DNA from: Planctomycetota bacterium
GTDB lineage: Bacteria; Planctomycetota; Phycisphaerae; Phycisphaerales; UBA1924
DNA: 64,000 bases
Assembly: GCA_020831805.1 (NCBI GenBank)
Contig: JAFIFX010000010.1
Span: 1-64,000 of the forward strand
Direction: 5' to 3'
In this document: in pieces, positions 15,198 through 50,293 of the stretch
How the letters are laid out: every line of letters starts with the position of its first letter
Position numbering within the stretch: the stretch's first letter is position 1
Program-made: the position numbers and the translations under genes
The notes under the pieces: model-generated
Seen by the model: the letters and a program-made list of their open reading frames with translations, nothing else
The model's database searches: none
Told to the model about the DNA's origin: nothing

Positions 15198-17567
15198 ATG
15201 CGCGTTTCTTGTGCGATCGTGCTGGTGGCGGGGTGTGTGGGGGTTGGGGGGGTAGCGGGTGCGGATCCGGGCGAGCCGCTGTTCTCCGGGCTGGGGTTCT
15301 ACACGCAGGAGCGGGTGCGGGGCGTCTGGGTGGGCGACCTCAACGGCGACGGCACGCCGGAGGTGGTCTGCCAGGAGGGGGACTTCCGGATCGCGACCTT
15401 CCGGCGCGTCGGGGGTCGGTACGAGCGGCTGAGCACGCTCGAGTCGGTCGACGAGATCACCTCGTTCGTGGTCGCGGACATGGACAATGACGGGCGCCCG
15501 GACCTGGTGCTCTCGACCGCGACCGGATTCCGGGTCACGATCTGGTGGAACGGCGGGGACGGGGTGTTCCCGTCGGGCTCGCCCAGGGTCATCGGCGGGA
15601 GCAACGACACCCGCTCGGTCGCGGTGGCGGACCTGAACGGCAATGGGCTGCTCGATCTGATCTGCTCGGTGACCTTCGCGGACAAGATGCACTTCATCCG
15701 CAACAACGGTGGGCGGAGTTTCAGCGCCTTCGGCAGCAGCAACGCGGGCGCGGCGCCGGGCGCCGTGGTCAGCGGGGCATTCCGGGGTCCGGGCACGGCA
15801 GACTTCGCGATCGTCGCCCGGGACGACGAGGCGGTTGAGTATCACCGCGTCACGACCACGACTTCGGGGAGCTTCCGATCCGTCCGCACGCCGTACCCCA
15901 TCGGCGCTGCGCCGGGCTCGCTGTTCGTGGCGGATCTGGACGGGGACGGGTTCGATGATCTGCTGGTTCCCGGCGTGGATCAGGCGGTCGTGTGGGTGTT
16001 GATGGGATCGGCCGATGGTCTCGGCCCGCCCGCGGCGGCGCCGGTCTCGCTGTCACCCACGCGGGTCGGTGCGATGGACCTCGACGGCGACGGGCGGCCT
16101 TCGATCGTGGCGGTCGATCGGAACGCGACCCGCTTCGCCGTGCTCGACCAGGATGCGGGCGGGTTCGCGCCCGAACGGTTGCTCGAGATCGCCTTCCGCA
16201 CCGACGCGCTGGCGTTCGGCGATGTGAGCGGCGACGGGCTGGCCGACATGGTGTTCGGCACGGAGTTCGATTTCGTCGGTACGATGGCGGGGGACGGCGC
16301 GGGCGGCTTCGTGGTGCGCGATTCGATCGGGGTTGAGCCGGACACCAGCGACTTTTTGTATGAGTTCGATCTGGCGGACCTGAACGGCGACGGTGTGCCG
16401 GACCTGCTGGTGCTCGACTACGACCTCAACCGGCTGTCGGTGTCGCTGGCCTCCGCGCCGGGGGTCTTTGGGGCTCCAACGCACTACGCGACTTCCGCGA
16501 ACCCGTTCACGATGGTCGTGGCGGACCTGACGATGAACGGCCATGCGGATGTGGTCGTGTCGCACTTCAACAACGATGTCGTGCATCTTTATCAGGGCGT
16601 CGGTGGGGGCGCGCTGAACCCCGTGCCGCGGACCTTCACGCTCGGTGGGTTCGGCTATCAGGTCGCGGCGGCGGACATGAACGGGAGCGGGTCGCCGGAC
16701 CTTGTGGCGCTGGCCGCGATTCAGAACCGGCTGAACATCTCGTTCAACGACGGGGCCGGCAACTTCGCCATGCCGCAGGTGTCGGTGCCGCTGAGTGCCC
16801 CCGGCCTGGAGCAGCCCGTGGCCATGGTGATCCATGACTTTGACCAGGACGGCGACCTCGATATCGCGGTGATCAGCCAGTTCGGTACGACGCTGCGGAT
16901 CGTGCGGAACGAGGGTGCCTCGGGGTTTGCCGTCCGCAATGCGATCACGCTGCCCGGTGAGGCGGGCTCGATCGTGGTCACCGATTTCGATGAGGACGGG
17001 GACGCGGACCTGGTGTTGCTGGGCTCGGCGACGGCATCGGGCTTCGGAGGGTTGCAGGTGATCATCCAACGGGACGACGCGCCGGGGTTCTTTCTGACCG
17101 GGCCGCGGATCCCGCTGCCGCTCGGGGGCTCCTACCGGGGGCTGCTGCTGGCGGACCTGGACGGCGATGGGATCGAGGACCTGGTGACGGGTTGCGCGCG
17201 GACGGCGTCGTTGGTGATGCTGCGCGGCACGGATCCCGGGTTCGGGGCGCCGACGCCGTTCTTCGCGGGTCGCGTGGTGACCGTGCCGCGGGCGGTCGAC
17301 CTGGACGAGGACGGGGATCTGGACCTGGTGTGGGCGGTGATCCCGGGGGGCGAGATCGGGGTGCTGCGGAACACGCGGTTGTCGCCGGTACAGCCCTGCC
17401 CGGCGGACCTCACCGGGGACGGCGTGGTCAACTTCTTCGACCTCAGTGAGTTCATGGCGTTGTTCAACGCCCAGGACCCGGCGGCCGACCTGGCCCCGCC
17501 GTTCGGGGTGTGGAACTTCTTTGATGTGTCGGCCTATCTGGCTCTGTACAACGAGGGCTGCCCCTGA
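15198..17567 (+). CDS. FG-GAP/VCBS repeat protein with C-terminal GC-type dockerin
   Basis: signal peptide MRVSCAIVLVAGCVG; many D-[LM]-[ND]-G-D-G-xxD repeats; ends CPADLTGDGVVNFFDLSEFMALFNAQDPAADLAPPFGVWNFFDVSAYLALYNEGCP. Confidence 0.9.
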   Translation: MRVSCAIVLVAGCVGVGGVAGADPGEPLFSGLGFYTQERVRGVWVGDLNGDGTPEVVCQEGDFRIATFRRVGGRYERLSTLESVDEITSFVVADMDNDGRPDLVLSTATGFRVTIWWNGGDGVFPSGSPRVIGGSNDTRSVAVADLNGNGLLDLICSVTFADKMHFIRNNGGRSFSAFGSSNAGAAPGAVVSGAFRGPGTADFAIVARDDEAVEYHRVTTTTSGSFRSVRTPYPIGAAPGSLFVADLDGDGFDDLLVPGVDQAVVWVLMGSADGLGPPAAAPVSLSPTRVGAMDLDGDGRPSIVAVDRNATRFAVLDQDAGGFAPERLLEIAFRTDALAFGDVSGDGLADMVFGTEFDFVGTMAGDGAGGFVVRDSIGVEPDTSDFLYEFDLADLNGDGVPDLLVLDYDLNRLSVSLASAPGVFGAPTHYATSANPFTMVVADLTMNGHADVVVSHFNNDVVHLYQGVGGGALNPVPRTFTLGGFGYQVAAADMNGSGSPDLVALAAIQNRLNISFNDGAGNFAMPQVSVPLSAPGLEQPVAMVIHDFDQDGDLDIAVISQFGTTLRIVRNEGASGFAVRNAITLPGEAGSIVVTDFDEDGDADLVLLGSATASGFGGLQVIIQRDDAPGFFLTGPRIPLPLGGSYRGLLLADLDGDGIEDLVTGCARTASLVMLRGTDPGFGAPTPFFAGRVVTVPRAVDLDEDGDLDLVWAVIPGGEIGVLRNTRLSPVQPCPADLTGDGVVNFFDLSEFMALFNAQDPAADLAPPFGVWNFFDVSAYLALYNEGCP

Positions 17568-17802
17568 GGGTTTGCCCGTGCGGGGGGGAGGTGCGGGGCC
17601 GGCGGCTGGAAGGCCACGGCCCGCGTTTCTCGGGGCATTTTGGGGGGCCTGGAGGTTTGCGGTCCTGCGAGCGTGGGTGATATAGGGCATCCGGGGCTGG
17701 AATTGATGCAACCGGCTTGGCTGTTCGGGGCGTATCGGGTACTTTAAGGCGACCCGCATGGCCGGGAGTTCTTCCCGGACCTTGGCCGACTTGGAGATAC
17801 CG

Positions 17803-19557
17803 ATGTCCAGAATCGCGTTCGCGTCCGCGTTGTTGTTGACCGCCTTCGTTGTGCTGACCGCTCGCGGTTCGGACCAGCCGCTGGTGCCGTTCGTGGGGCC
17901 GGAGGGCGTGGCGGGTCGGATGCTGCTCTCGCCGGCGCTGGAGCCGACGGTGGAGCGGGCGCGCCGGATCAGTCCGGACTTTGCGGCGATGGACGCGGTG
18001 ACGCCGGGCCCTCGCTCGCTGGTGCTGCTGGACCTGTTCGATGATGCGCGGCTGACGGCCCGGGTGGACCGGGTCGAGCTGCGCGACCTCGCGCGGTACA
18101 CCTGGTACGGGCGCGTGCTGGCCCAGGACCCGGGCGACTGGGCCGACGAGGAGGCGTTCGGGGGGACCTTCGTGATGGCGGTGGAGGAGGACGCGGTGAC
18201 GGGGGCGGTGTGGCTGGACGACGGGCGGACCTTCGAGATCCGCCACGACGCGACCGGGCAGTTGTGGGCGACGGAGCTGAACCAGGCGGCGTTCGCGCCG
18301 TGCGAGACCGGGCCGGAGCACTGCGTGCACGAGGCGCACGAGCCCCGCCGCCGGCTGGCGCCGGGCCAGAGCGCCGCGCCGCGTTCGGGCTCGTCCTGCC
18401 CGGACGACGGCTCGGTTATCGATGTGCTGGTGGTGTACACGCCCTCGGCCCGTAGCGTGAACGGCGGGACGAACGGGATCGTGTCCCTGATCAACGCGGC
18501 CGTGGCGGCGACCAACAACGCCTTTCAGAACAGCCAGATCGAGACGCGCATCCGGCTGGTGCATGTCGCGGAAACGAACTATATCGAGTCGGACAGCAAC
18601 AGCACGAACCTCTCGCGTCTGCGCGGCACCAGCGACGGGCACATGGACGAGGTCCACGGCCTGCGCCAGCAGTACGGCGCGGACATGGTCGCCCTGATCC
18701 ACAACGGTCCGGGCTGCGGCATCGCGTACCTGATGACGAACCTTTCGCCGGGCTTCCGCACCTCGGCGTTCTCCGTGACGCGGCACTCGTGCGCGGTGGG
18801 CAACCTGACCTTCGCCCACGAGCTGGGCCACAACCTCGGCAGCGCGCACGACCGGGACAACGCGGGCAACGCGCTGTTCTCGTACTCCTACGGGCACCGC
18901 TGGGTCTCGACGAACGGGCAGACCAACCGCTCGGTGATGGCCTATTCCCCCGGCACGCGCCGGCCGCACTTCTCCAACCCCAATGTGCTGTATGTCGGCA
19001 CGCCCACGGGTATTCCCCAGGGCCAGCCCGGCGCGGCGGACAACGCCCGCTCGATCAACGAGGCGGCCTTCACCGCGGCCAACTGGGTGCAGAGCGTGGA
19101 CCCGTCCGAGCCGGTGATCGTGGCCGGCCCGCAGGCGCAGGTGCTCGAGTCCGGCGAGTCGCTGGTGTTCGTGACCGGCGCGGTGGGGCAGGAGCCGCTG
19201 ATGTACCAGTGGTTCCGCGACGGCATCGTGCTGGTCGACGACGGACGCATCTCCGGCGTGTCCACGCCGACGCTGATCGTCACCAATGTGACGCCCGCCG
19301 ATTCGGGCGTGTACGAGCTGCTCGTCGGCGACAACTGCGGCGGCGAGGCCTCGGCCACGGCGCAGGTCACCGTCAACGCCCCGCCTTGCCCGGCGGACAT
19401 CAACGGCGACGGGGAGCTGAACTTCTTCGATCTGTCGGCCTACCTGGCGTTGTTCAACGCCCAGGACCCGGCGGCGGACCTGGCCGAGCCGTTCGGCGTG
19501 TTCAACTTCTTCGATGTGGCGGCGTACCTGGCGCTGTACAACGCGGGGTGCCCGTAA
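17803..19557 (+). CDS. reprolysin-like zinc metalloprotease with Ig-like domain and GC-type dockerin
   Basis: HELGHNLGSAHDRDN zinc site plus RSVMAY Met-turn; Ig-like AGPQAQVLESGESLVF...ADSGVYELLVGDNCGG; dockerin ...NAGCP. Confidence 0.9.
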   Translation: MSRIAFASALLLTAFVVLTARGSDQPLVPFVGPEGVAGRMLLSPALEPTVERARRISPDFAAMDAVTPGPRSLVLLDLFDDARLTARVDRVELRDLARYTWYGRVLAQDPGDWADEEAFGGTFVMAVEEDAVTGAVWLDDGRTFEIRHDATGQLWATELNQAAFAPCETGPEHCVHEAHEPRRRLAPGQSAAPRSGSSCPDDGSVIDVLVVYTPSARSVNGGTNGIVSLINAAVAATNNAFQNSQIETRIRLVHVAETNYIESDSNSTNLSRLRGTSDGHMDEVHGLRQQYGADMVALIHNGPGCGIAYLMTNLSPGFRTSAFSVTRHSCAVGNLTFAHELGHNLGSAHDRDNAGNALFSYSYGHRWVSTNGQTNRSVMAYSPGTRRPHFSNPNVLYVGTPTGIPQGQPGAADNARSINEAAFTAANWVQSVDPSEPVIVAGPQAQVLESGESLVFVTGAVGQEPLMYQWFRDGIVLVDDGRISGVSTPTLIVTNVTPADSGVYELLVGDNCGGEASATAQVTVNAPPCPADINGDGELNFFDLSAYLALFNAQDPAADLAEPFGVFNFFDVAAYLALYNAGCP

Positions 19558-19780
19558 GGGCTCCGGCCGCTGGGGATGGTGGTCGTCGGCGTTGGGCGGA
19601 AGCGCCCGCTGAACCTCGATGGGAGCCGGGTGTGGCTTCCGGATCGCTTTTGGTGATCGGTTCTTGATGCGTGGGCCGGATCACGGTACTCTGATTGAGG
19701 TTTCTCGATCGTGCCATCCTGAACCTTCAAGGTTCAGGCTTGGCCGAAACAGTTCGGGAACAGCACAGGGGAGCCTCGAC

Positions 19781-21430
19781 ATGTGTTTGAAGCAGAGTCG
19801 GTTCGCAGTGTTGGCAGTGTTGGTGTGCATGGTTCAGGTTGCTTGGACACAGGAGTGCGAGTGGGAAACGTTAGGCCAGGGGGTTAACGGTGATGTCTTT
19901 GTCCTAGGGGTGTTCGATTATGGGTCGGGTCCAGCGATTTATGCTGGGGGAAACTTCACGCAAGCCGGCGGTAGCCCCGCAAGTCGCATTGCACGCTGGG
20001 ACGGGGAATCTTGGTCACCATTGGGTGCGGGGATGAGTGCAGGCACGGTCTATGCATTAGCAGTTTTCGATGACGGCACGGGTCCAGCTTTGTATGCGGG
20101 TGGCGAGTTTACTGTCGCCAGCGGTCAGGTCGTTAACTACATCGCGAAATGGGATGGCAGCAACTGGTCGCCTCTGACTGGGAGTTTAGGTACGGGTACG
20201 AACGGCCGTGTGAAAGCATTGACAGTCTTCGACGACGGCACCGGCGCAGCTTTGTACGCTGGGGGTGTGTTTGCTCTCGCTGGTGGGCAGGTGGTAAGTC
20301 GCATCGCCAAATGGGATGGCACAGACTGGTCACCATTGTTCGGGCCTTCTGGCACGGGACTCAACGGCCTCGTCGAGGCCCTCACAGTCTTCGATGATGG
20401 CACGGGTGAGGGACTTTACGCCGGTGGTCTTTTTACTAGTGCTGGCGGGACGACAGTAAACCGTATTGCCAAGTGGGATGGTACAGATTGGACGCCCTTG
20501 ACTGGGCCAAATGGTACGGGTGTGAATAGCCAAGTTCTGGCAATGACAGTTTTCGATGATGGTACAGGTGAGGCCCTATATGTGGGCGGCTTCTTCCTTG
20601 CCGCCGGCGGGCAGACGGTTAACCGTATCGCGAAATGGGACGGTAGTAACTGGTCGCCGTTGATTGGACTCGGTAGTACTGGAGTGAGTGATGCAGTTCG
20701 GACTCTGACTGTATTCGATAATGGAGCGAGTAGAGCACTGTATGCAGGTGGTGCATTCTTTCTGGCTGGCGGGCAGACGGTTAATCGCATTGCTAAGTGG
20801 GACGGCGCGGCGTGGTCTGCCCTCACTGATTCCGTTGGGACCGGAGTAAATGGCTTGGTTGAGGCCCTCACGGTCCTGGGCAATGGAACCGATGCTAAAC
20901 TTTTTGTGGGTGGTCAGTTCACTACAGCTGCTGGACAAAACGCTAACCACATTGCAGCCTGGCGCTGCACAATCACCTGTAACCCTGCTCCTGCAATCGT
21001 AGTAGGGCCCCAGGACCAGGTGCTTCAAGCAGGTGACACACTCATCCTGCTTACCGGCACAGTTGGGCAACAGCCACTAATGCATCAGTGGTTTCACGAT
21101 GGGTTTGTGGTGATGAATGATGGTCGCATCTCAGGTGCTACCACGCCGACACTGATCGTGACCGAAGTTACGCCCGCAGATTCAGGTGTGTATGAACTTG
21201 TCGTCAGCGACAACTGCAGCGATAAAGTTTCAGCATCAGCGGTTGTGGCCGTTGAAGTACCATGTCACGCCGATCTCGACGACAACGGCGTGTTAAATTT
21301 TTTCGACATCGCCGCATTCCTTGCGTACTACCAGATCCAAGATCCCATCGCCGACTGGAACGGTGACGGACTATTCAACTTCTTCGACTTCGCAGCCTAT
21401 CTCGACGCGTTCAACGCGGGGTGCCCCTGA
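19781..21430 (+). CDS. seven-repeat beta-propeller-like protein with Ig-like domain and GC-type dockerin; lower GC than neighbours
   Basis: seven ~50-aa repeats xxVFDDGTGxALYAGGxFxxAGGQxVNRIAKWDGxxWSPL; Ig-like domain; dockerin ...NAGCP. Confidence 0.88.
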   Translation: MCLKQSRFAVLAVLVCMVQVAWTQECEWETLGQGVNGDVFVLGVFDYGSGPAIYAGGNFTQAGGSPASRIARWDGESWSPLGAGMSAGTVYALAVFDDGTGPALYAGGEFTVASGQVVNYIAKWDGSNWSPLTGSLGTGTNGRVKALTVFDDGTGAALYAGGVFALAGGQVVSRIAKWDGTDWSPLFGPSGTGLNGLVEALTVFDDGTGEGLYAGGLFTSAGGTTVNRIAKWDGTDWTPLTGPNGTGVNSQVLAMTVFDDGTGEALYVGGFFLAAGGQTVNRIAKWDGSNWSPLIGLGSTGVSDAVRTLTVFDNGASRALYAGGAFFLAGGQTVNRIAKWDGAAWSALTDSVGTGVNGLVEALTVLGNGTDAKLFVGGQFTTAAGQNANHIAAWRCTITCNPAPAIVVGPQDQVLQAGDTLILLTGTVGQQPLMHQWFHDGFVVMNDGRISGATTPTLIVTEVTPADSGVYELVVSDNCSDKVSASAVVAVEVPCHADLDDNGVLNFFDIAAFLAYYQIQDPIADWNGDGLFNFFDFAAYLDAFNAGCP

Positions 21431-21618
21431 ACCTTGTGGTCGCGCAGCGATCCGCACAAAGACCTTCCCTTTTTGTTTCGCTCGGTCTGTCGGGATCCCA
21501 GCCGCTTCCATCGGGCGTGGTGGGGTGTTGATCGGTTGCGGGCCGGAAACTTGCCGATCTGGGCTTGCGGGCGCGGCGGGATGTGGTACGCTCGTGGGAT
21601 CTGGGGAGGTACCGCGGT

Positions 21619-23502
21619 ATGAAGGTTTGGTGGGGGGTTTCGGTGTTCGCGCTGGCGAGCTTCGCGTCCGCGCAGGTTTCCACGCCGCTCGTGGTCAAGC
21701 AGGTCGCGGCGCCGCCGTCGGACATTGAGACGGGCGTGGTCGTGCTGCCGGATCCGGCGGAGCGCGGCGTGGCGTCGCGTTCGGCGCTGCTGGAGGTGGA
21801 CCTGATCGAGGACCCCGCCACGGGCCGCTGGTCGTGGTCAGCGGGGGTGTCGGTGGGGGCGCGAGGGGCACAGGTGGCGTTTCTGCCGTCGATCGGGGCG
21901 TCCTGGTCGGCGCGGATCGTGTCACCGGGCGGCCGCGCGGCCGACGCGGACGGGGCGGATGTGGCCGAGGGGGCCGGGGGGGTCTGGCACGATCGCGAGC
22001 GTCTGGCGTGGAGCGGGAGCGAGCGGCTGTTCGACGCGCTCGCCATCGACGGCGCGGAACAGGGCGATTGGCGGATCGAGATCGAATCGGACCGGGGTGT
22101 GAACGGGTTTGTGCTCGTGGCGACGGATGGCGAGGTGGAGCTTTACACGCACCGGGATTCGTACAGCGCGCTCGCGGGCGAACCGGTTCGGCTGTTCGCT
22201 TCGTTCAGCGACGGCTCGCGCCCGCGCGGGCTTCACGCGTCGGTGCGTGCTCCGAGCGGGGCGAGCTTCGCGGTGCGGGGTGATCCGGCGTCTGGGCTGC
22301 TGTCGTTCACGCCGGACGAGCCAGGGGCGTACGCCGTGCGGGTCGAGGCCGAGGGCGTCGATGCGGCGGGGGACCGGTTCGTGCTGACGACGCAGCACCT
22401 GGTGGATGTGGCCGAGCCCGCGGATCCGCTTGGCGGGGTGCGGGTGGACACGGGCGACGAACGGGTGGTTTTCGAGTTCCAAGCGCAGTCCGGAGACCGG
22501 CGCGTGATCCTGGCGAGCGAGGTGTGGGGCGAGCGGGACGGCGCGATGGTGCCGGTGTGCTGGCTGGCGCGGGTGTGCGGGTCGGCGCGGTCGCTGGCGA
22601 TGGACACGCGTTGGCTTTCGATGGCCGGGGTCGATCCCGCGACCGTCGAGCTGCGCCGCACCCGGGTGCACGATGTGAATTCGATGAACCTGCTCGAGCT
22701 GGTCGAGCGGATGCCGGCGCCGGCGGCGGGGGTCGCGTTACCCCCGGCGCCCGATGCGCCGACGCGGGACATGCTGGTTTCCGCCTCGCCGGAAGCGGTG
22801 CTGACGCCGCTCGATCCGGGCCGCGGCGTGCTGCTGCCTCCGGGGCACCGGCTGCTGCTCGTGCACGGGTACTGCGCTCCCGGGAATCCCTTCCCGACGG
22901 CGCACTTCAGCGGCTCGTACGCAGCATTCAATGACCCGGGCGCGAACCGCTCGCACGACGAGTTCGCGCTGGAGATCCTGGCGCAGACGGCGCAGATGAA
23001 GTCGTTCGGCGTGGCGGCCCACTCGCAGGGCTCGCTCGCGTCGCTGCATCTCTATAACTTCTACTTCAGCGGCATGGACTGGGCGCGGGGGGCGCGCCTG
23101 ATCCAGACGGTCGGCGCGCCGTACCAGGGCACGCCGCTGGCGGGCCTCGGCGCGGTGTTGGGCGATGTCTTCGGGGTCGGATGCGGGGTGAACCCGAACC
23201 TGACCTATCTCGGGGCCGCGGCGTGGCTGTCGACGATCCCGACTTCGTCTCGCCAGAATGTGTGGTACTGGCGGACGACCTTCGAGGTCCGGCCCTTCGT
23301 GGTCAACTACTGCAGTCTGATCACGAGAGCGCTGCTGAACGCCCCGGAGGACGGCGTGGTGGAGGCGGCGGCCGGCGTGCTGCCGGGTGCGACGAACATG
23401 GGACTGAAGGAGGGCTGGTGTCACACCAACGACATGCGCGATCCCCAGCAGACGCGGGACGCCCAACGCAACGCGCAGATCAACCAGACGGCACGGCGGT
23501 GA
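21619..23502 (+). CDS. secreted alpha/beta-hydrolase-like protein (conditioned-medium-factor-like), no dockerin
   Basis: signal peptide; HRLLLVHGYCAPGNPFPTAHFSG, FGVAAHSQGSLASLHLYNFY nucleophile-elbow-like GxSxG variant AHSQG. Confidence 0.65.
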   Translation: MKVWWGVSVFALASFASAQVSTPLVVKQVAAPPSDIETGVVVLPDPAERGVASRSALLEVDLIEDPATGRWSWSAGVSVGARGAQVAFLPSIGASWSARIVSPGGRAADADGADVAEGAGGVWHDRERLAWSGSERLFDALAIDGAEQGDWRIEIESDRGVNGFVLVATDGEVELYTHRDSYSALAGEPVRLFASFSDGSRPRGLHASVRAPSGASFAVRGDPASGLLSFTPDEPGAYAVRVEAEGVDAAGDRFVLTTQHLVDVAEPADPLGGVRVDTGDERVVFEFQAQSGDRRVILASEVWGERDGAMVPVCWLARVCGSARSLAMDTRWLSMAGVDPATVELRRTRVHDVNSMNLLELVERMPAPAAGVALPPAPDAPTRDMLVSASPEAVLTPLDPGRGVLLPPGHRLLLVHGYCAPGNPFPTAHFSGSYAAFNDPGANRSHDEFALEILAQTAQMKSFGVAAHSQGSLASLHLYNFYFSGMDWARGARLIQTVGAPYQGTPLAGLGAVLGDVFGVGCGVNPNLTYLGAAAWLSTIPTSSRQNVWYWRTTFEVRPFVVNYCSLITRALLNAPEDGVVEAAAGVLPGATNMGLKEGWCHTNDMRDPQQTRDAQRNAQINQTARR

Positions 23503-24200
23503 GGCTCCTCGGCGCCGTGCTGCTGTGCCTCTCCGCCTCGGCCGGCGCGTCGGGGAGCGATGCGTGCGCCACGACGCCCGTCGCCATCCCGGACTTCAAC
23601 GCGCAGGGGGTGGTCGCGCCGATCGTGGTCGACGCGGGCCCGGGCCTGGTCGTCGAGACGATCACGGTGCATCTCGGGATCACGCACCCGTGGGTCGGCG
23701 ATCTGGTCGTCACGCTCGAGTCGCCCTCCGGGGAGGTCGTGGCGCTGCTGGACCGGCCCGGCATTCCCAGCACGGGTTTCCCAGGCCCGTTCGGCTGCGG
23801 CGGGCGGGACATCAACGCGATCTTCGCCGATGATGCGTCGGTCGCCGCGGAGGACATCTGCTCCTATGCCGCCCGCCCGGTGATCACCGGCACCGTTCGA
23901 CCGAACGGGTCGCTGAGCGCGTTCCACGGCCAGCCGGCCTCGGGGACCTGGCTGCTGCGGCTGTACGACCTCCAGTCGTACGATGTGGGCACCCTGACCC
24001 AGGCGTGCCTGCAGATCACGACGGCGCCCGCTTGCCCGGCGGACATCAACGGGGACGGAAAGCTCAACTTCTTCGACTTCGCCGCGTTCATCACACTGTT
24101 CAACGCGGGCGATCCCGCGGCGGACATCAACGGGGATGGGGAACTGAACTTCTTCGATGTGGCGGCCTACCTGAACCTGTTCAACGCGGGGTGCCCCTGA
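23499..24200 (+). CDS. proprotein-convertase P-domain protein with GC-type dockerin
   Basis: GTG start overlapping previous stop by 4 nt; ITVHLGITHPWVGDLVVTLESPSGEVVALLDRPG ... LSAFHGQPASGTWLLRLYDLQSYDVGTL; dockerin ...NAGCP. Confidence 0.85.
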   Translation: MRLLGAVLLCLSASAGASGSDACATTPVAIPDFNAQGVVAPIVVDAGPGLVVETITVHLGITHPWVGDLVVTLESPSGEVVALLDRPGIPSTGFPGPFGCGGRDINAIFADDASVAAEDICSYAARPVITGTVRPNGSLSAFHGQPASGTWLLRLYDLQSYDVGTLTQACLQITTAPACPADINGDGKLNFFDFAAFITLFNAGDPAADINGDGELNFFDVAAYLNLFNAGCP

Positions 24201-30647: not shown

Positions 30648-30911
30648 CCCACCCAAACGGGGGTGGTTTGCGTGCGAAATGACAACCGGGATCCGAACAC
30701 ACGGGAGGCTTCGGCCTCCTGTTTTCTTTTTCCACTTTGCCTCACCACAAGGGGGCTTGCGTTTCTTCCCTTAGTTGATAATCTGCGGGTATCGACCGGG
30801 GAGACCGGCGGGTGTCCGACGGGCTCCGGTCGTTGAGTGAAAGTGGATCGTGGGGTACCTCGCACAGGATTGGGCGGGGGCACGATCGAAGAGAGAAAGA
30901 GAGGACGAAAG

Positions 30912-40553: not shown

Positions 40554-42146
40554 ATGAGACGGACGATTTCTCGGGCGGCGTCGGCCGCGTTGTTATTGGT
40601 GGTCGGCGGGGCCCAGGCCCAGTGGACCGACGACCCTGGATTGAACACCCCGGTCGTGGTGAAGGCAGGGGACCAGACCGTCGTGAAGACCGGCGTCGGA
40701 CCCGACGGCTCGTCGTGGACCGGCTGGTTCGATTTCGCGCCGGGGGGCATCCAGGTCCGTGTCCAGCGGCTCGACGCGGACGGGAACCAGACCTTCGACC
40801 CCGAGGGCCTGCTCGTCTCGGCCAACCCGCAGAACACCTCGACGGTCGACTGGGACCTGCGCGTCGACGATGACGGCAACTGCATGCTGGCCTTCACGGA
40901 CATTCGCGCCGGGAGCGATCTGGATGTGTACGCGTACCTGATCGCGCCCGATGGCCAGATGCTCTGGGGCGCCGACGGCGTGACGGTGTCCGACAACGAC
41001 GCCTTCGAGGCCGACCCGCGGATCATCCGGCTCGCGGGCGGCGACTACGCGGTGGTCTGGCCGCGGTTCCAGACCAACCCGGGGCTGGTGATGCAGCGGA
41101 TCAGCCCGGCGGGCGTCAAGGCGTTCGCGGGCGACGGGGTGATGCTCTCCGCCGTCGGCACCGAGGCCCCGGCGTTTGTCGAGATCGAGCCGACGAGCGA
41201 CGGCGGGTTCATCGCCGCCTGGATCCGCAACACCGCGACCTTCATGAGCCCGCGCCATGTGTGGGCGCAGAAGTTCGACGCCGACGGCGCAGCGCAGTGG
41301 GGGACCAGCCCGATCGTGGTTTCTGATGCGACCAGCGTGCCGATCGCCCACCGGCCGCGTGTGATCAACGACGGCTCGGACGGCGCGGTGATCGCGTGGC
41401 ATGACACGCGGACCGGCAGCTTCAACGCCTTCGTGCAGCGGATCAGCCCGGGCGGATCGGTGCTCTTCGCGGCCAACGGCCAGCCCGCCTCGGACGAGGC
41501 CGGCCGCCAGCAGCTCGACCCGGCCATCGCGATGGCCCCGTCCGGCGACATCATGATGATCTTCCGCAACCTCGACGGGGCCCAGTCCCAGCAGAGCATG
41601 AACGCCCAGCGGTTCGGCGGCGCGACCGGCGCACGCATGCTCGGGAACAACGGCGTCGCCCTGACCCCGTTCGACGGGCAGTTCAAGGGCCCGCCCCGCG
41701 CCGTCGCGCACGCGGACGGCATCGCCGGCGTCTTCGACCGCCAGCCGACGCTGGGCAACACCGCCGGCGTGCTGGAGATGTACATCGTCGACGAGGCCGG
41801 TGACGCGCTGGGCGGCGGGCCGATCACGGTCTCCGGCGTGCTCAGCAACAAGGGACGGCTCAACCTGAACCGCTGGGCCGACGGGCGCATGCTCGCCACA
41901 TGGTCCGACCGGCGCAACGGGCCCGAGGATATCTACGCCCAGGCGGTCAACCCCGACGGCACGCTCGGCGCGGGCGGCTGCCCGGCGGACCTGACCGGTG
42001 ACGGCCAGCTGAACTTCTTCGATGTCGCGGCCTACCTGGACCTGTACAACGCGGGCGACCCGGCGGCGGACTGGAACGGGGACGGGCTGATCAACTTCTT
42101 CGACCTGGCGGCGTACCTGGACGATTTCAACGCCGGCTGCCCGTAA
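40554..42146 (+). CDS. secreted repeat protein (propeller-like) with GC-type dockerin
   Basis: signal peptide; QRISPAGVKAFAGDGVMLS..., WHDTRTGSFNAFVQRISPGG repeats; dockerin ...NAGCP. Confidence 0.88.
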   Translation: MRRTISRAASAALLLVVGGAQAQWTDDPGLNTPVVVKAGDQTVVKTGVGPDGSSWTGWFDFAPGGIQVRVQRLDADGNQTFDPEGLLVSANPQNTSTVDWDLRVDDDGNCMLAFTDIRAGSDLDVYAYLIAPDGQMLWGADGVTVSDNDAFEADPRIIRLAGGDYAVVWPRFQTNPGLVMQRISPAGVKAFAGDGVMLSAVGTEAPAFVEIEPTSDGGFIAAWIRNTATFMSPRHVWAQKFDADGAAQWGTSPIVVSDATSVPIAHRPRVINDGSDGAVIAWHDTRTGSFNAFVQRISPGGSVLFAANGQPASDEAGRQQLDPAIAMAPSGDIMMIFRNLDGAQSQQSMNAQRFGGATGARMLGNNGVALTPFDGQFKGPPRAVAHADGIAGVFDRQPTLGNTAGVLEMYIVDEAGDALGGGPITVSGVLSNKGRLNLNRWADGRMLATWSDRRNGPEDIYAQAVNPDGTLGAGGCPADLTGDGQLNFFDVAAYLDLYNAGDPAADWNGDGLINFFDLAAYLDDFNAGCP

Positions 42147-42168
42147 TCGCCATCGCAGTCACACCACG

Positions 42169-42352: not shown

Positions 42353-44422
42353 ATGCGGTTCAAGAATCGGTTCGGTGTGTCTGCGATGATGTTGGTGATC
42401 TGTGCGGGCGGCCTGCACGGGGCGACGGACGCGGGGTCCGCGGCGGACCCGGTTGCTCCCGCCCGGCTGCCCGCGGGCACGGCCCCGCTGCCGGACCGGA
42501 CCGCGGAGCGGGTGGGCGCGTTCAGCGCGGCCCGCATGTGGAACGAGGAGCTGCTGGCGGCGGTGCGGCGTGATCGGCCGCGTCCTCCGGTCGTTTCGAG
42601 GGATCTGTTCCATGTCTCCGCCGCGATGTATGACGCGTGGGCGGCCTACGACGCCACGGCCACCGGCGTCTTCCGGACGGAGTGGGCCGAGGCCGCGGAC
42701 ACCGCGGCGGCTCGCCGGGAGGCGGTCAGCTACGCCGCCTACCGGCTGATCGCGCACCGCTACGCCGACTCGCCTGGCGCGCCCGTGACGCTGCCCTCGC
42801 TGGACAGCCTGATGGATCTGCTCGGCTACGACCCCGCGGTCACGACCCGCACCGGGCCCAGCCCCGCGGCGGTGGGCAACCGCATCGCCGCCGCGATCAT
42901 CGCGCTGACGGCCGAGGACGGCTCCAACGAGGCGGGCAACTACGCCGACACCTCCGGCTACGCGCCGGTGAACGGCCCGCTGACGGTCGATGTGCCCGGC
43001 GTGGGCGTCCTCAACGACATCAACCGATGGCAGCCGCTGATCGTTCCGGGCTTCAGCGACCAGCAAGTCTTTCTGGCCCCCCACTGGGGTGCGGTGCGCC
43101 CGTTCGCGATCGAGCGTCCGTCGCCCGGCGAGCTGTACCTGGACCCCGGCCCGCCGCCCGTGATCGGCGGCGACGGCGACGCCGACCTCCGCGCCGATCT
43201 GCTCGAGGTCATCCGCGCTTCGGCGCAGCTCGATCCCGACGACGGCGTGATGATCAACATCTCGCCCTCGGCCGTGGGCAACAACACCCTCGGTTCGCAG
43301 GACGGGCAGGGCCACAAGACCAACCCTTCGACCGGGCAGCCCTACCCGGACAACATGGTGCTCCGCGGCGACTGGGGCCGCGTGCTCGCCGAGTTCTGGG
43401 CCGACGGCCCGCTCTCCTCGACGCCTCCGGGCCACTGGAACGAGATCGCCAACGAGGTGGTCGACACGCCCGGCTTCGAGCGACGCTTCGGCGGCGACGG
43501 GCCCGAACTCGACTCGCTGGAGTGGGATGTCAAGATGTATCTCGCCCTGAACGGCGCGGTCCACGACGCGGCCATCGCCACCTGGGAGGTCAAGGCCCAC
43601 TACGACTTCACCCGCCCGCTGTCGCTGATCCGCGGCATGGGCGCGCTCGGCCAGTCATCCGATCCCGACGGCGCGTCCTACCACCCGGACGGGTTGCCGC
43701 TGGAGGAAGGCCTGGTCGAGTTGATCACGCCGGCGTCCGCCGCGCCCGGCGAGCGCCACGAGCACCTGGCCGACCACATCGGCGAGATCGCCCTGTTTGC
43801 CTGGCAGGGTCATCCCGCCGATCCAACGGCCGAGTACGGCGGCTGCGGCTGGGTCCGCGCGGTCGAGTGGCTGCCGTACCAGCAGTTCGACTTCGTCACG
43901 CCGCCGTTCGCGGGCTACACCTCGGGCCACAGCGGCTTCAGCCGCGCCGCCGCCGAGGTGCTCACCCAGCTCACCGGCGACGCCTTCTTCCCCGGGGGGC
44001 TCGGCGAGTTCATGGCGGCCACCGGCTCGGACGGCTTCGACCTCGGCTTCGAGTTCGGGCCGCTGCAGGATGTCCCGCTTCAGTGGGCCACCTACTACGA
44101 CGCGGCCGACGAGGCGGGGATCTCGCGCATCTACGGCGGGATCCACCCGGCCTTCGACGATTTCCCGGGCCGGGTCATCGGCTCGAACGCAGGCATCGCG
44201 GCGTTCACGAGGGCCTCGGCGTCCTTCAGCGGCAGCGCGGCGTCGTTGTGCCCGGCGGACTTCGCCGAACCGTTCGGGGTGCTGGACTTCTTCGATGTCG
44301 CCGCGTTCATCGACGCGTTCGTGGCGGGCAGCCCCGCGGCGGACCTGGCCGAGCCGTTCGGCGTGCTGGATTTCGCGGACATTGCGGCGTTCTTTGACGC
44401 GTACAACGCCGGCTGCCCCTGA
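42353..44422 (+). CDS. vanadium-dependent haloperoxidase/PAP2-like protein with dockerin in which both loops are the AEPFGV variant
   Basis: WNEELLAAVRRDRPRPPVVSRDLFHVSAAMYDAWAAYD; PPFAGYTSGHSGFSRAAAEVLTQLTG; C-terminus ...NAGCP. Confidence 0.85.
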   Translation: MRFKNRFGVSAMMLVICAGGLHGATDAGSAADPVAPARLPAGTAPLPDRTAERVGAFSAARMWNEELLAAVRRDRPRPPVVSRDLFHVSAAMYDAWAAYDATATGVFRTEWAEAADTAAARREAVSYAAYRLIAHRYADSPGAPVTLPSLDSLMDLLGYDPAVTTRTGPSPAAVGNRIAAAIIALTAEDGSNEAGNYADTSGYAPVNGPLTVDVPGVGVLNDINRWQPLIVPGFSDQQVFLAPHWGAVRPFAIERPSPGELYLDPGPPPVIGGDGDADLRADLLEVIRASAQLDPDDGVMINISPSAVGNNTLGSQDGQGHKTNPSTGQPYPDNMVLRGDWGRVLAEFWADGPLSSTPPGHWNEIANEVVDTPGFERRFGGDGPELDSLEWDVKMYLALNGAVHDAAIATWEVKAHYDFTRPLSLIRGMGALGQSSDPDGASYHPDGLPLEEGLVELITPASAAPGERHEHLADHIGEIALFAWQGHPADPTAEYGGCGWVRAVEWLPYQQFDFVTPPFAGYTSGHSGFSRAAAEVLTQLTGDAFFPGGLGEFMAATGSDGFDLGFEFGPLQDVPLQWATYYDAADEAGISRIYGGIHPAFDDFPGRVIGSNAGIAAFTRASASFSGSAASLCPADFAEPFGVLDFFDVAAFIDAFVAGSPAADLAEPFGVLDFADIAAFFDAYNAGCP

Positions 44423-44497: not shown

Positions 44498-44523
44498 CTG
44501 CACGCCCTGCCGCGGCGTGCAGA
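44498..44523. repeat. hairpin ctgcacgcc-ctgccgc-ggcgtgcag in the 5' region upstream of 44736
   Basis: inverted repeat read directly. Confidence 0.5.
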
Positions 44524-44735: not shown

Positions 44736-47078
44736 ATGCACGAAATCCGATTCTTGGCACTCGCGGTATTGCTTTTGCTCAAGGGAGTCGCGACCGCTCA
44801 GGAAGTTCGGTTTTCGACAACGTTCGAAGAGATCGATTTCGCCGCGAATTTAATCGCCATTGATACCAACGGAAACGGCCGGGACGAGTTGGTCGGCTGG
44901 GCGATCAACCCGCTGCGTTACGCGGTGCTGAGCTTCGATCCGGGGGGCGGTATCACGGTCTCGCCGACGCAGGTTATCGGCGGCGACGGAGCGGTCCGTG
45001 TGAGCACCGGCGATCTCAACTCGGACGGGCTTGATGATCTCGTCTTCCTGCCACTCTTCGAGTCGCAGATCATCGTGCTTCTCAGCAACGGCGACACGAC
45101 ATTCTCGAATGCGCCGGGTTCACCCGTGCCGGCGACGGATGTCGCGCGCGCGATCCGTGTGGTCGATGCGGATCTTGATGGATTCAAGGACATCCTTCTC
45201 GCCACCAGCAACTCGATCATTTTTTACAAAGGCCGGAACGATGGTGGGTTCGATTTTCCGACTGCTTTTCATACGGGCATACCAACGGTACGCGACATGG
45301 TCTTTGCGGATTTTCGGGGCGACGGGAACCCCGTGCTGGCTGTCATAAGCGCGAACCGGAGCATTCACTTTTTCGAGCGGGACGGCCAGACCTTTACGGA
45401 GTATCAGGTTCTCCCCGCCGGAGACTGGCTGTTGCGGGCTGAAGCGATCGATGTTGACAACGCAGGGTCCATACGGCTCGTGATCGCTGCAGAAAACAAT
45501 CAGCGCGTCATCACCGTCGGTTGGGACGAAAACGCGCAAGAGTATTCCGTTCTGCACCGATCGACCCGGCTTAATTCCGGCACGACAAGCGTTGCGTTCG
45601 GGGATCTGAACGGAAATGGTATCGATGATGTCGTGTACGGCGTTAAGGATGTCGACGCGCTCCGTGTGTTCTACGCCGACCCGGATGGGTCCGGGCTTTA
45701 TACAGACTCAGGAACCGAGCTCGGCCGGTTCGAGAGGTTGAGCGGTGTGGCCGTGGCCGACATCGATGGCAATGGTGTCAATGAGCTGATCTTGGCGGGC
45801 TTCAAGAAAACGGGGGTGATGGTTCTGCGACCGGACGCGACATCCGGCCTCCGGGCGGCGACCTACTCCAGTCCCAACCCGAGCAGCTTCGGTCGGCTTC
45901 TGGCCTATGAGCAACCCGACGGGACACCCGCTGTTTACGCCATGCCCGAGGATTTCTCGCGTGCCGTTCACAGGCTGACCTTCTCCGAGATTGACGGTCA
46001 GTTCGAGATTTCTGCCGAGCAGGTCGACGGCGCGGATTTCGTCACATTGCCGACCGAGGTTGCCACCGGAGATTTGAATAACGACGGGCTTGTGGACCTC
46101 TACAGTCTCAGCACCGTCAACACCACGCGTCGCATCCAGTGGCAGCTCGCCACGCCCGAAGGCGGGTTTGGCATCCGGCTGAACCGCCAGACGGAAGCGG
46201 TCGTGTTCAATCTGACGGTCGCCGACTTCAACGGCGACGGATACGATGATGCGGCGGTCTTGGACCAGTCTGGTAACGTGCGTATCTTTTTTGCGCGGGA
46301 TGGTGGTTCGCTCGATCCTCCGACCATCGTTCCCATGACCACCGATGGATTTTCGCTCAGGTCGCTGCTGGCCAAGGATCTCGACGGCGACGGGTGGGTT
46401 GATCTGGCCTGTTTCGCACGTCCCACCAGCCAGACTTCAGTCCTGATCATTCGCTATGGACGCGGAGATGGGACCTTCGACCCGCCGGTGTCGTTCTCCA
46501 GCAACGTCGGCGTCGGCCAGACGCTCCCCGGATGGATTGATGCGGCTGATTTCAACTCGAACGGACAGCTGGACATCATCGCCGCGCAGGCCAAATCCTC
46601 GCACCTCTTTCTGTCAACGGGTATCCGAACCTATGGGCCCGTGGTGCTCGTGTCGGAAGGTCCCTCTTTGTTCAGAGTCGAAGCGGTGGATCTGAACGGC
46701 GACGGCCGGCCCGAGATCGCCACGGTCTTCGATGGCTACACCGAGATCGTGGAAGTCACGCCAGACGGCGCCATCGGGCCGCGTCGGGGCTTGTATCAGA
46801 ACCCTCCGGTCGGGTCCGTTTTCGTTGATGTCAACGCTGACGGGTTACCTGATCTTGTGTCCGCTTCAAAGTTCGATACCGCCGTGTCATTCAATGTTTC
46901 GCACGCTGCATGCCTCCCTGATCTGAATGGCGATGGGGTTGTCAACTTCTTTGATCTCGCGATTTATATTGCCCTGTTCAACGCCGGTGACCCCGACGCT
47001 GATCTCAACAACGACGGGCAACTCAACTTCTTCGACCTCGCGGCCTATCTGACCCTGTTTAACCAGGGCTGCCCCTGA
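44736..47078 (+). CDS. FG-GAP/VCBS repeat protein with GC-type dockerin
   Basis: signal peptide MHEIRFLALAVLLLLKGVATA; VVDADLDGFKDILLAT, FGDLNGNGIDDVVYG; ends NQGCP. Confidence 0.9.
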   Translation: MHEIRFLALAVLLLLKGVATAQEVRFSTTFEEIDFAANLIAIDTNGNGRDELVGWAINPLRYAVLSFDPGGGITVSPTQVIGGDGAVRVSTGDLNSDGLDDLVFLPLFESQIIVLLSNGDTTFSNAPGSPVPATDVARAIRVVDADLDGFKDILLATSNSIIFYKGRNDGGFDFPTAFHTGIPTVRDMVFADFRGDGNPVLAVISANRSIHFFERDGQTFTEYQVLPAGDWLLRAEAIDVDNAGSIRLVIAAENNQRVITVGWDENAQEYSVLHRSTRLNSGTTSVAFGDLNGNGIDDVVYGVKDVDALRVFYADPDGSGLYTDSGTELGRFERLSGVAVADIDGNGVNELILAGFKKTGVMVLRPDATSGLRAATYSSPNPSSFGRLLAYEQPDGTPAVYAMPEDFSRAVHRLTFSEIDGQFEISAEQVDGADFVTLPTEVATGDLNNDGLVDLYSLSTVNTTRRIQWQLATPEGGFGIRLNRQTEAVVFNLTVADFNGDGYDDAAVLDQSGNVRIFFARDGGSLDPPTIVPMTTDGFSLRSLLAKDLDGDGWVDLACFARPTSQTSVLIIRYGRGDGTFDPPVSFSSNVGVGQTLPGWIDAADFNSNGQLDIIAAQAKSSHLFLSTGIRTYGPVVLVSEGPSLFRVEAVDLNGDGRPEIATVFDGYTEIVEVTPDGAIGPRRGLYQNPPVGSVFVDVNADGLPDLVSASKFDTAVSFNVSHAACLPDLNGDGVVNFFDLAIYIALFNAGDPDADLNNDGQLNFFDLAAYLTLFNQGCP

Positions 47079-47115
47079 TCGCCAGCCCGCCATCGCGGCC
47101 CGCCGGGCTCGCTGC

Positions 47116-47442
47116 GGATCCCCACAACTGACGGGCAGTGATCCGGCTGCCCGCCCAGCTCGCCGACAGGTTCTGCCCCCTCGTTCGATGGAGGCTTGTG
47201 CTGCGTCACCGGCGACCCGTTCTTCTCCGGCGGGCTGGGCGCGTTCCTTGCTGCCACCAGGCCCGACGGCTTCGATCTGCGCTTTGAGTTCGGACCGCTG
47301 CAGGATGTCCCGCTTCAGTGGGCCACCTACTACGACGTGGCCGACGAGGCGGGGATCTCGCGCATCTCCGGCGGTATCCACACGGCCTTTTTGACGATTT
47401 TCCGGGCCGGCTCATCGGCTCGAACGCAGGCATCGCGGCGTA
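47116..47442 (+). pseudogene. chimeric pseudogene scar: 5' end of the NAD-epimerase locus (47116-47214) fused to a 3' fragment of the haloperoxidase gene (47206-47442)
   Basis: 47116-47214 aligns with 50343-50443 and 47206-47442 aligns with 43971-44205; the copies share tcaccggcg at the join; frameshifts in both halves. Confidence 0.85.
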
Positions 47443-47642
47443 CTTCCACCCGTCCAACAGCGGACATCCCTGACCGACAGCCCTCGGCGTCGGCGCCTGT
47501 CATCTGTGCAAACAACAAGAATTGCACGACACCGCTGAACTTTTCGCGCTGTTTTACTTGACACGCGCCGTCGCTTTCGGCAGGATGAAAACAGCTTCTC
47601 AATCGCGAGCACATCAACGAGCGCACGCTCAAAGGACGGAGG

Positions 47643-48668
47643 ATGATTCGGATGTCTCTGACCCGATTGGCTGTATTCGTTGCCCTTGTGTTCTGCGGCG
47701 GGATGGTGGTCGACGCCCAAGCCTCGGCGGAATCGCAGTTTACATACCAGGGACGGCTGGACATGCACGCCCAGCCGTACACCGGCACGGCGGATTTCCA
47801 GTTCACGCTCTGGGATGCTCCCAGCGGCGGGAGCCAGATCGGCTCCGTGAACGCCAAGAACGGCGTCGAGATCGAGGACGGGCTGTTCACGGCCGAACTG
47901 GATTTCGGCGCCGAGCCGCTGCAGGGCACGCGGTATCTGCAGATCCGCGTCCGGGCGCCGAGCGGGTCGGGCGATTTTTTCACCTTCCCCGACCGCACAC
48001 GCATCAGCGCCTCGCCCTTCTCCATCCGGACGCGCGGCCTGTATGTGAACGAGGCCGGCAACCGGGTGGCGATCGGGACGCAGGACCCCACCCACACCCT
48101 CCATGTGACGGGTTCATCGCCTTCGACGGCGTTGTTCCAATCGTCGAGCCCCGACGGATCCAGCATGAACCTCAGCAGCACCGGTCCCGGCGGGCGGGGC
48201 TGGATGTTTACCTCGTCCGCATCGAGCACGCCCGGGGGCGCGGGCAAGCTGCTGATCTATCCCGCAGGTACGACGAACTTCGGCGACAACGCCCTGACGG
48301 TGCACCCCTCCGGCGTTCTCGGCGTGCTCACCACCAGCCCGCAGGACTCGATCCACATCGGCAGCGGCGCGTTGCGTTTCCCCGACGGATCCCGTCAGTT
48401 CAGCGCGTACGCGCCGGTCATCGCCGATGTCCCGGTCGTGAGTTTCGTTGTACCCGGCAATGGTCAGAACACGCTTAACTCTATTGTGCCAGGCGCGCAG
48501 CCGGGCATGACGGTCGTCGTCACGCCCCCGTACGACCTCTGGCCGTTCCACTCGATCGGCTTCGCCCGAGTAATCGCGCCCGACACGGTGCGATTCTCGG
48601 TCGTCAGCAACGCCGCCGGCGACCGTACCTATAGCGCGAACACATGGCGTTTCATGGTTTTCCCCTGA
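47643..48668 (+). CDS. secreted tail-fibre-like protein, no dockerin
   Basis: FTYQGRLDMHAQPYTGTADFQFTLWDAPSGG...NRVAIGTQDPTHTLHVTGSS... Confidence 0.72.
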   Translation: MIRMSLTRLAVFVALVFCGGMVVDAQASAESQFTYQGRLDMHAQPYTGTADFQFTLWDAPSGGSQIGSVNAKNGVEIEDGLFTAELDFGAEPLQGTRYLQIRVRAPSGSGDFFTFPDRTRISASPFSIRTRGLYVNEAGNRVAIGTQDPTHTLHVTGSSPSTALFQSSSPDGSSMNLSSTGPGGRGWMFTSSASSTPGGAGKLLIYPAGTTNFGDNALTVHPSGVLGVLTTSPQDSIHIGSGALRFPDGSRQFSAYAPVIADVPVVSFVVPGNGQNTLNSIVPGAQPGMTVVVTPPYDLWPFHSIGFARVIAPDTVRFSVVSNAAGDRTYSANTWRFMVFP

Positions 48669-48761
48669 TGCGCTTGCTCAACGCACACGCGGCCCGGCGT
48701 TCGATCCTCTGACTCGATCGGACCTGACTGATTCAACCTCCAGCAAAGAAAGGCACATCGA

Positions 48762-49796
48762 ATGCGTCCCTCTCGGAACATCCTGGCGGTCTTTGCGATC
48801 TTGATGGGCGGTCTGACCCTGGCCCAGGCCCAGTCCGTAACTTCATCGGAGTTCACCTACCAGGGCCGGCTGGATTTCCAGGGCCAGCCCTACATCGGGG
48901 GGGCGGACTATCGGTTCTCGCTCTGGAGCGCGGCCACGGGCGGCGAGCAGATCGGATCCACCGCGCAGAAATCCGGTGTGCAGGTGCAGGACGGGCTGTT
49001 CACCGTCAACCTGGATTTTGGCCCCAACGCGGTCGGCCAGAGCCGCTGGCTTGAGATCGCGGTGCGCACCCCGGCCTGGGACGGTTCCGGAACTGAACCG
49101 GACTTCTTCACGCTCAGCCAGCGCCAGCCCATCACGAACTCGCCGTACTCGGTCCACACCCGCGGCATATTCGTCAACGAGGCCGGGGACCGGGTTGCGA
49201 TCGGCACCCAGAGCCCCACACACACCCTGCATGTAGCGGGTTCATCAAAGAACACGGCGTTGCTCAGTTCTTCAAGCCCGTCCGGCACGACGCTCCAACT
49301 GAGCAACACCAGCGCGGGTGGGCGATTCTGGTCGCTCACCTCGGGCGGTTCTTTAACATCCGAAGGCGCCGGAAGGCTGCACTTCGGCTTTGGCTCGAAC
49401 CCCGGCGCAGGCAGCACCATCTTCACCCTTTCCCCGCTGGGTGGGATCGGGATTCTCACATCGAACCCGCAGGACCCGATTCACCTCGGCGCGGGTGCGA
49501 TGCGTTTCCCGGATGGTTCCCGCCAGTCCACCGCCTACGCGCCGATCGTGGCGAATGTCGCGTTAGGAAGTTTCACTGTGCCGAGCGGCGGCGAGAACAC
49601 CCGGACTTTCGCCGTAACCGGCGCTCAGCCGGGCATGATGGTCGTCGTCACGCCCCCGTATGACCTCTGGCCGTTCCACTCGATCGGTTACGCCCGGGTG
49701 ATCTCGGAGAACCTGGTGCGATTCTCGATCGTCAGCGGCGGGGGGGGCCAGCGAACCTACAGCGCGAACACATGGCGCGTCACCGTCATCCCGTAA
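48762..49796 (+). CDS. paralogue of 47643-48668, secreted tail-fibre-like protein, no dockerin
   Basis: FTYQGRLDFQGQPYIGGADYRFSLWSAATGG...DRVAIGTQSPTHTLHVAGSS; shared C-terminus QPGMxVVVTPPYDLWPFHSIG. Confidence 0.72.
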   Translation: MRPSRNILAVFAILMGGLTLAQAQSVTSSEFTYQGRLDFQGQPYIGGADYRFSLWSAATGGEQIGSTAQKSGVQVQDGLFTVNLDFGPNAVGQSRWLEIAVRTPAWDGSGTEPDFFTLSQRQPITNSPYSVHTRGIFVNEAGDRVAIGTQSPTHTLHVAGSSKNTALLSSSSPSGTTLQLSNTSAGGRFWSLTSGGSLTSEGAGRLHFGFGSNPGAGSTIFTLSPLGGIGILTSNPQDPIHLGAGAMRFPDGSRQSTAYAPIVANVALGSFTVPSGGENTRTFAVTGAQPGMMVVVTPPYDLWPFHSIGYARVISENLVRFSIVSGGGGQRTYSANTWRVTVIP

Positions 49797-49858
49797 ACCA
49801 CGACGCGCTGCCGGAACGATCCCCGGCCGCGCACGCCCCGCAGGCCAAGGACCACACC

Positions 49859-50293
49859 ATGCCCCAGCACCGCTTCTCATTCGTCCAGGCCCTTGCCGCC
49901 CTGACGGCGGCGGCCTCCGGATCGCTCGCCATGCAGCAGGGCGGGCCGGATTACTCGATCCCGTGGTACAACATCGGCTCCGGTGGCGGCACCAGCTCCG
50001 CTGGGCCGTACACCCTCTCCGGCACCATCGGCCAGCACGAGGCGTCCGGCCCCTCCGAGGCCGGGCCGTACACGCTGACCGGCGGCTTCTGGGCGGGCGT
50101 CGCGCCCTCCAGCCCGGGCTGCTCGCCCGCCGACCTGGCCGAGCCGTTCGGCGTGCTCAACTTCTTCGATGTCGCCGCGTACATCGCCCTCTACAACGCC
50201 GGCGATCCGGCGGCCGACTTCACCGGTGACGGGCAGCTCAACTTCTTCGATGTCGCCGAGTTCATCGCGATTTACAACCAGGGCTGCCCGTGA
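49859..50293 (+). CDS. short secreted protein (144 aa) with GC-type dockerin
   Basis: YTLSGTIGQHEASGPSEAGPYTLTGGFWAG followed by SPADLAEPFGVLNFFDVAAYIALYNAGDPAADFTGDGQLNFFDVAEFIAIYNQGCP. Confidence 0.85.
   Translation: MPQHRFSFVQALAALTAAASGSLAMQQGGPDYSIPWYNIGSGGGTSSAGPYTLSGTIGQHEASGPSEAGPYTLTGGFWAGVAPSSPGCSPADLAEPFGVLNFFDVAAYIALYNAGDPAADFTGDGQLNFFDVAEFIAIYNQGCP

Follow-up and report, generated by a model that had tools for sequence, protein, structure and literature searches.

Does a locus encoding 15 exported proteins with one and the same C-terminal ending serve a dedicated assembly, and what might that ending do? The window considered here, meaning the whole 64,000-nucleotide stretch that was analysed, comprises bases 1 to 64000 of contig C23 in a 3.36-Mb genome of 30 contigs that is 93% complete. 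The first-pass annotation described an island of 15 secreted proteins that share a dockerin module on unrelated ectodomains, and took its density to suggest a dedicated surface or extracellular assembly locus.

Gene content of the island

On reading back in frame, all 15 stop codons were found at the positions claimed, all on the plus strand, and the first island gene indeed begins at 15198 (Table 1). The same ~55-residue module with two F-hands ends all 15 ORFs; 14 finish with GCP, and the gene ending at 39162 finishes with SCS. That the proteins are secreted is borne out by a hydrophobic, signal-peptide-like segment after the start in 15 of 15 genes, called with a heuristic of our own rather than SignalP. 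RBS-like sequence is present at the starts of all island genes but one. A frameshift considered for the gene ending at 24200 was dropped, because a GTG start with a signal peptide at 23499 accounts for the frame.

The ectodomains are varied, but the description that they differ completely was too strong. Pfam searches indicated about ten families rather than fifteen, because FG-GAP propellers occur four times (genes ending at 17567, 33187, 37947, and 47078), Rax2/DUF5122-like propellers occur twice (21430 and 25711), and the beta-lactamase fold belongs to two adjacent paralogues (28164 and 30647). The remaining ectodomains are a reprolysin, a P-domain, a subtilase, an esterase, a haloperoxidase-like domain (DUF6851/VCPO), and two without a family. 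The island is not one operon, being broken up by a minus-strand gene and by several genes without the module.

Table 1. Genes of the island at 15198-50293 and the positions of their C-terminal modules
Feature	Coordinates	Strand	Module	Remarks
FG-GAP propeller with module	15198-17567	+	17397-17561	
Reprolysin-like metalloprotease, Ig-like domain, module	17803-19557	+	19387-19551	
Rax2/DUF5122-like propeller, Ig-like domain, module	19781-21430	+	21263-21424	
Exported hydrolase-like ORF	21565-23502	+		Module-free; HSQGS motif; inside island; overlaps P-domain gene (start 23499) by 4 bp
Proprotein-convertase P-domain with module	23499-24200	+	24033-24194	GTG start; 4-bp overlap with preceding stop
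Rax2-like propeller with module	24386-25711	+	25544-25705	
Beta-lactamase fold, Ig-like region, module	25906-28164	+	27994-28158	Paralogue of 28398-30647
Beta-lactamase fold, Ig-like region, module	28398-30647	+	30477-30641	
Exported protein, PTPG...RRRR (PEP-CTERM-like) tail	30837-31541	+		Module-free; inside island
FG-GAP propeller with module	31739-33187	+	33020-33181	
Subtilase (peptidase S8) with module	33448-35214	+	35047-35208	
FG-GAP propeller with module	35377-37947	+	37780-37941	
Putative esterase (PF00756) with atypical module	38068-39162	+	39004-39156	SCS end; without opening Cys
Multi-paralogue family gene	39179-40381	-		Inside island; probably outside the tag system
Exported protein without named ectodomain family, module	40554-42146	+	41979-42140	
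Haloperoxidase-like (DUF6851/VCPO) with module	42353-44422	+	44249-44416	Two non-canonical loops in module
FG-GAP propeller with module	44736-47078	+	46911-47072	
Two exported paralogues	47643-48668 and 48762-49796	+		Module-free; inside island
Short exported protein without named ectodomain family, module	49859-50293	+	50120-50287	

The gene ending at 47078 is directly followed by a fragment (47193-47390) that shares 79% identity with the haloperoxidase-like protein over residues 568-633 and looks like the remnant of a duplicated copy. A gene for the ATP synthase alpha subunit (13409-14995) ends shortly before the island begins, and the scanned genes of the window included no further recognisable ATP synthase subunit. 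A 1145-residue ORF at 1927-5364 matches the LpxR outer-membrane protein in its C-terminal part (residues 842-1141). Downstream, a PilM-like (Amuc_1101-like) gene followed by two further genes occupies 59360-64000, continuing to C23:64818, and resembles a type IV pilus cluster. Two exported proteins of the window (30837-31541 and 53296-54012) carry PTPG...RRRR tails by eye, a second C-terminal tag class.

A dockerin module with paired cysteines

All 15 island modules matched NF041540 at 40.5 to 57.7 bits (cut-off, 29), so the NCBI product name "GC-type dockerin domain-anchored protein" applies, as the annotation had it. No paper was found under this name in the literature collection searched, in agreement with its statement that partner and function are not established. 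A profile of the 15 modules matched the PDB dockerins 2y3n_B (E = 7e-5) and 5lxv_B, and one of the modules exceeded the gathering score of PF00404 (27.7 versus 22.9 bits), with three at 20 to 22 bits and the rest not listed. The AlphaFold model of the module (pLDDT, 93) has two helices. Its four best Foldseek matches were dockerins, although weak ones (E = 0.7 to 1.0), the best being 2y3n_B (TM score, 0.59; probability, 0.89; E = 0.7). Sequence and predicted fold alike place the module among the dockerins.

The position of the module is nearly constant. In the window's own genome, 103 of 106 ORFs have no more than 3 residues between module and stop (85 end exactly in GCP). In other genomes, 216 of 218 loci have no more than 2 (GCP in 178), these loci having been found by similarity and therefore leaning towards typical modules. 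Many modules have canonical loops, and their sequences suggest that the module binds calcium; in about half of the modules, a 13-residue AxPFG loop replaces the calcium loop in one or both halves. Since AxPFG loops are without the usual calcium ligands, calcium dependence may be partial. Three tails in the same genome (L071, L075, and L082) have a single F-hand and keep both cysteines and the GC(P) end.

An opening and a closing cysteine frame the module. After correction by eye, 97 modules of the window's genome had both, 2 (among them the esterase ending at 39162) the closing one only, 6 neither, and none the opening one only (P = 1.7e-8); the script count before correction was 95, 3, 5, and 3, respectively (P = 2.9e-5). 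The correction removed a locus-cut duplicate (L026), moved L094 and L100, whose closing cysteine lies further from the stop, to the class with both, and moved L077, whose cysteine is inside a loop, to the class with neither. Both cysteines were also present in 210 of the 218 modules from other genomes and in 22 of 24 tails of haloperoxidase orthologues (neither in G227 and G219). Because they mostly occur as a pair or are both missing, the two cysteines probably form a disulfide clasp, although the cysteine-less modules are also the most degenerate, so that joint loss could partly reflect general decay. In classical dockerins the ends are held by an aromatic-proline "intramolecular clasp" (PMC4728124, PMC5934362), and by analogy the disulfide would do the same work.

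Genomic spread and lineage-specific tails

A profile search of the whole genome, proposed in the first-pass annotation, returned 110 NF041540 matches, about 105 of them over the cut-off, of which the island holds 15. The island is the densest patch of the genome, with smaller module groups on contigs C22, C14, and C9. It contains 15 modules in 33 kb, whereas 2000 random placements never gave more than 9, and 39 gaps between neighbouring modules in the genome are shorter than 4 kb (random mean, 13.3; maximum, 24), under a model that places points rather than genes and ignores tandem duplication. In a closed relative (G084), at least 150 copies are spread all round the chromosome, and no stretch exceeds chance density (5 per 33 kb; random mean, 6.0), with close pairs somewhat in excess (40 gaps shorter than 4 kb; random mean, 22.7; maximum, 36). 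The density that had been noted is thus real, but the dedicated assembly locus drawn from it was rejected, the tag being genome-wide in both genomes. Single scattered genes, which the annotation had named as evidence against its proposal, do occur, although clustering in the window's genome is genuine. Rather than a separate machine, the island might be a place where tagged genes have accumulated, in part through tandem duplication. At two contig ends (C3:70183-70284 and C23:104567-104668 of the same genome, G000), partial module matches have equal scores, which suggests that near-identical modules break the assembly.

NF041540 was found in 6 of 198 genomes sampled across the phylum, five of them from the window's own family, and in 90 of 100 genomes of that family, often in 50 or more copies. 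Copy numbers in relatives ranged from 0 to over 50 (at 1e-6), and almost all named relatives are Phycisphaerales MAGs. One 2.6-kb contig with the label Parvularculaceae carries a typical module (L118) and is probably mis-binned. NF041540 recovers the tag family incompletely: the family genomes G239, G206, and G219 have 0, 9, and 1 matches at 1e-6, and their haloperoxidase orthologues bear diverged tails of the same anatomy, that of G219 with neither cysteine. We built a broader profile from 24 diverged tails, which had been chosen for both cysteines, so that cysteine invariance among them is no evidence for the clasp, and checked some of the low-count genomes with it. A family genome with no NF041540 match at 1e-6 (G266) gave at least 55 matches. 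Across the class, 87 of 120 genomes had matches, many of the weaker ones being ordinary dockerin-like repeats, and strong cysteine-clasped tails outside the family were found in G360, G376, and G380.

The haloperoxidase allows the same enzyme to be compared across hosts. Relatives of the window's copy were found in 26 of 100 family genomes, and a double F-hand ends all 24 readable tails (G248, G280, G202, and G214 were left out because the longest frame was another). The ectodomains of G206 and G238 are 69 to 72% identical to that of the window, whereas the three tails are 21 to 36% identical to one another. On average, each of the three resembles the remaining tails of its host genome most (0.53 versus 0.27 to 0.34, 0.44 versus 0.34 to 0.38, and 0.62 versus 0.35 to 0.42). 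A further flavour, with 80-residue modules and inserted loops, occurs in G281, and averages within and between genomes indicate that flavours follow clades rather than single genomes. At the level of sequence, the tail behaves as a lineage-specific address common to ~100 proteins. The domain had already been named by NCBI; this address behaviour and the probable clasp are what is new.

Host-specific tails would be expected if a single drifting receptor read every tag; concerted evolution would give a similar picture with no receptor involved. Against docking, then, gene conversion could produce lineage-specific tails without any receptor. Some module pairs are indeed near-identical in DNA from the first cysteine codon through the stop, while similarity on either side falls to background. 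In one pair (L087), DNA identity is 0.97 in the module and 0.53 and 0.46 in the flanks, and 52 of 55 codons agree synonymously (P = 6e-7; 0.003 after 4671 comparisons). Measured against the codon habits of the genome, only this and one other neighbouring pair (L083; corrected P = 0.04) remained significant after correction. The modules of the window genes ending at 33187 and 42146 are 94% identical in DNA without a significant synonymous excess (corrected P = 0.2), and most pairs showed no excess synonymous identity (mean, 0.664). That gene conversion generally accounts for the uniform tails was therefore rejected, since recent copying in a few pairs does not permit generalising.

Candidate partners, rival readings, and known systems

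The annotation saw no cohesin-like gene in the window, and indeed PF00963 had no match at E ≤ 1 in the entire genome (93% complete), a search that covers Pfam-recognisable cohesins. PF00963 matches occur in 13 of 100 family genomes, with two of the contigs involved looking foreign by eye (L055 and L058). The idea of a cohesin whose phyletic profile matches that of the module failed, because cohesins are not distributed in the family as the module is: PF00963 is present in 3 of the 10 genomes that lack an NF041540 match and in 10 of the 90 that have one. A cohesin partner recognisable by PF00963 was rejected on both grounds. The minus-strand gene at 39179-40381 was likewise rejected as an island-specific partner, belonging to a multi-paralogue family with 8 copies in the same genome; a tail-module match lies near 6 of 30 loci of this family, only 3 of these being strong. 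The family has no Pfam name, possibly contains an HTH (by eye), is present in 79 of 100 family genomes, and has a homologue in the G281 island. For the module-free paralogues starting at 47643 and 48762, which were considered as a cohesin-like receptor, the predicted model was poor (pLDDT, 49).

An explanation has to account for what was computed: the C-terminal position, the dockerin fold class, the co-occurrence of the cysteines, the spread through genome and family, and the host-specific tails. From here we infer docking on a surface receptor and coevolution of receptor and tag. N-terminal signal peptides would take about 100 proteins to the periplasm. The tag would fold around calcium into a dockerin-like helix pair, and a disulfide from the opening to the closing cysteine would hold both ends. 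So folded, it would dock its protein on a single receptor common to all, which would be located at the cell surface or in an extracellular structure and would not be a recognisable Pfam cohesin. If this receptor serves every tag of a cell, receptor and tag would drift together, each lineage would come to have its own tag sequence, and a given enzyme would wear the tag of its host genome. That an orphan, clasped dockerin tag docks many exported proteins to one putative receptor is the best explanation, though in our estimate an evenly balanced proposition. Besides gene conversion, the AxPFG loops, the three single-F-hand tails and the wide range of NF041540 copy numbers among relatives speak against it. 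We are more tentative about the wider form of this explanation, which somewhat probably goes too far: that Phycisphaerales possess a large surface-assembly system in which a disulfide-clasped, lineage-specific dockerin tag on 100 to 200 exported proteins per cell meets a receptor of a new, non-cohesin family.

The main rival, which we consider rather unlikely, takes the module for an export or sorting signal that an outer-membrane secretion or attachment machine reads as a folded tail, much as T9SS C-terminal domains are read, and may cut, so that the tail would not be kept as a docking module. The near-constant C-terminal place and conserved GCP end speak for it, as does very diverse cargo with signal peptides; cellulosomal dockerins, by comparison, are not restricted to the C-terminus and can lie at the N-terminus or within the protein. 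Outside the family, three relatives (L318, L320, and L328) have a double F-hand directly before a PEP-CTERM tail; these examples suggest that a dockerin-like domain was once near a surface anchor and became terminal in the lineage of the window, and the terminal version could stand in for PEP-CTERM. However, no such machine was found, and the module is predicted to fold like a dockerin. The module proteins are not of PEP-CTERM type, as GCP directly follows the second F-hand helix without a membrane helix or Arg-rich end. Exosortase is present in 100 of 100 family genomes (with two in the window's own), and the 16 PEP-CTERM matches over the cut-off in that genome form a set apart from the module proteins. 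Since both coexist with the tag, replacement of exosortase sorting was rejected.

It is also conceivable, though improbable, that the module is just a cap or spacer at the protein end, stabilised by calcium and a disulfide and having no specific partner, and that likeness within genomes comes from gene conversion and domain shuffling. The near-identical module DNA between background flanks in the L087 pair fits this reading, but the lack of synonymous excess in most pairs means that conversion alone does not explain tail uniformity, and GCP and both cysteines are kept on ectodomains of about ten families. Least probable, and very doubtful in our view, is a classical cohesin-dockerin assembly like the "planctosome" proposed for freshwater Phycisphaerae, in which proteases and other enzymes dock on cohesin scaffoldins (PMC6461901). 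The organism class is the same, the cargo overlaps (reprolysin and P-domain), and some family genomes do have cohesins; against this stand the missing PF00963 match in the window's genome, the lack of any link between cohesin and module, and the two foreign-looking contigs.

If docking to a common receptor is correct and the tag serves as an address, much of what these aquatic bacteria export would be organised by a single receptor, and dockerins would play a major part in settings other than cellulosomes and without recognisable cohesins. The tag could also find use in protein display, as a new orthogonal module. Should the module prove to be a mere cap, the annotation "anchored" misleads for more than 100 proteins per genome. 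Because the tails are host-specific, the question can be tested: a receptor would have to change in step with them.

With the type I dockerin of cellulosomes (PF00404; PDB 2y3n, 2vn5, and 4dh2), the module shares the duplicated F-hand, the loop Asp, two helices, and the predicted fold. It differs in its two end cysteines, its near-constant C-terminal place, its many non-canonical loops, and a genome in which no cohesin was found. The planctosome of Nemodlikiaceae (Andrei et al. 2019, PMC6461901) has in common with the island dockerin-bearing proteases, reprolysin, and P-domain proteins, and the setting in Phycisphaerae. In comparison, the planctosome model needs cohesins and concerns peptide degradation only, whereas here the cargo is general and no cohesin was found. 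PEP-CTERM/exosortase and MYXO-CTERM tails are likewise C-terminal tags on dozens of unrelated exported proteins, and MYXO-CTERM is described as having an invariant cysteine (PMC11980579). Those tails consist of a membrane helix and an Arg-rich end, whereas the island tag appears to be a folded, soluble module.
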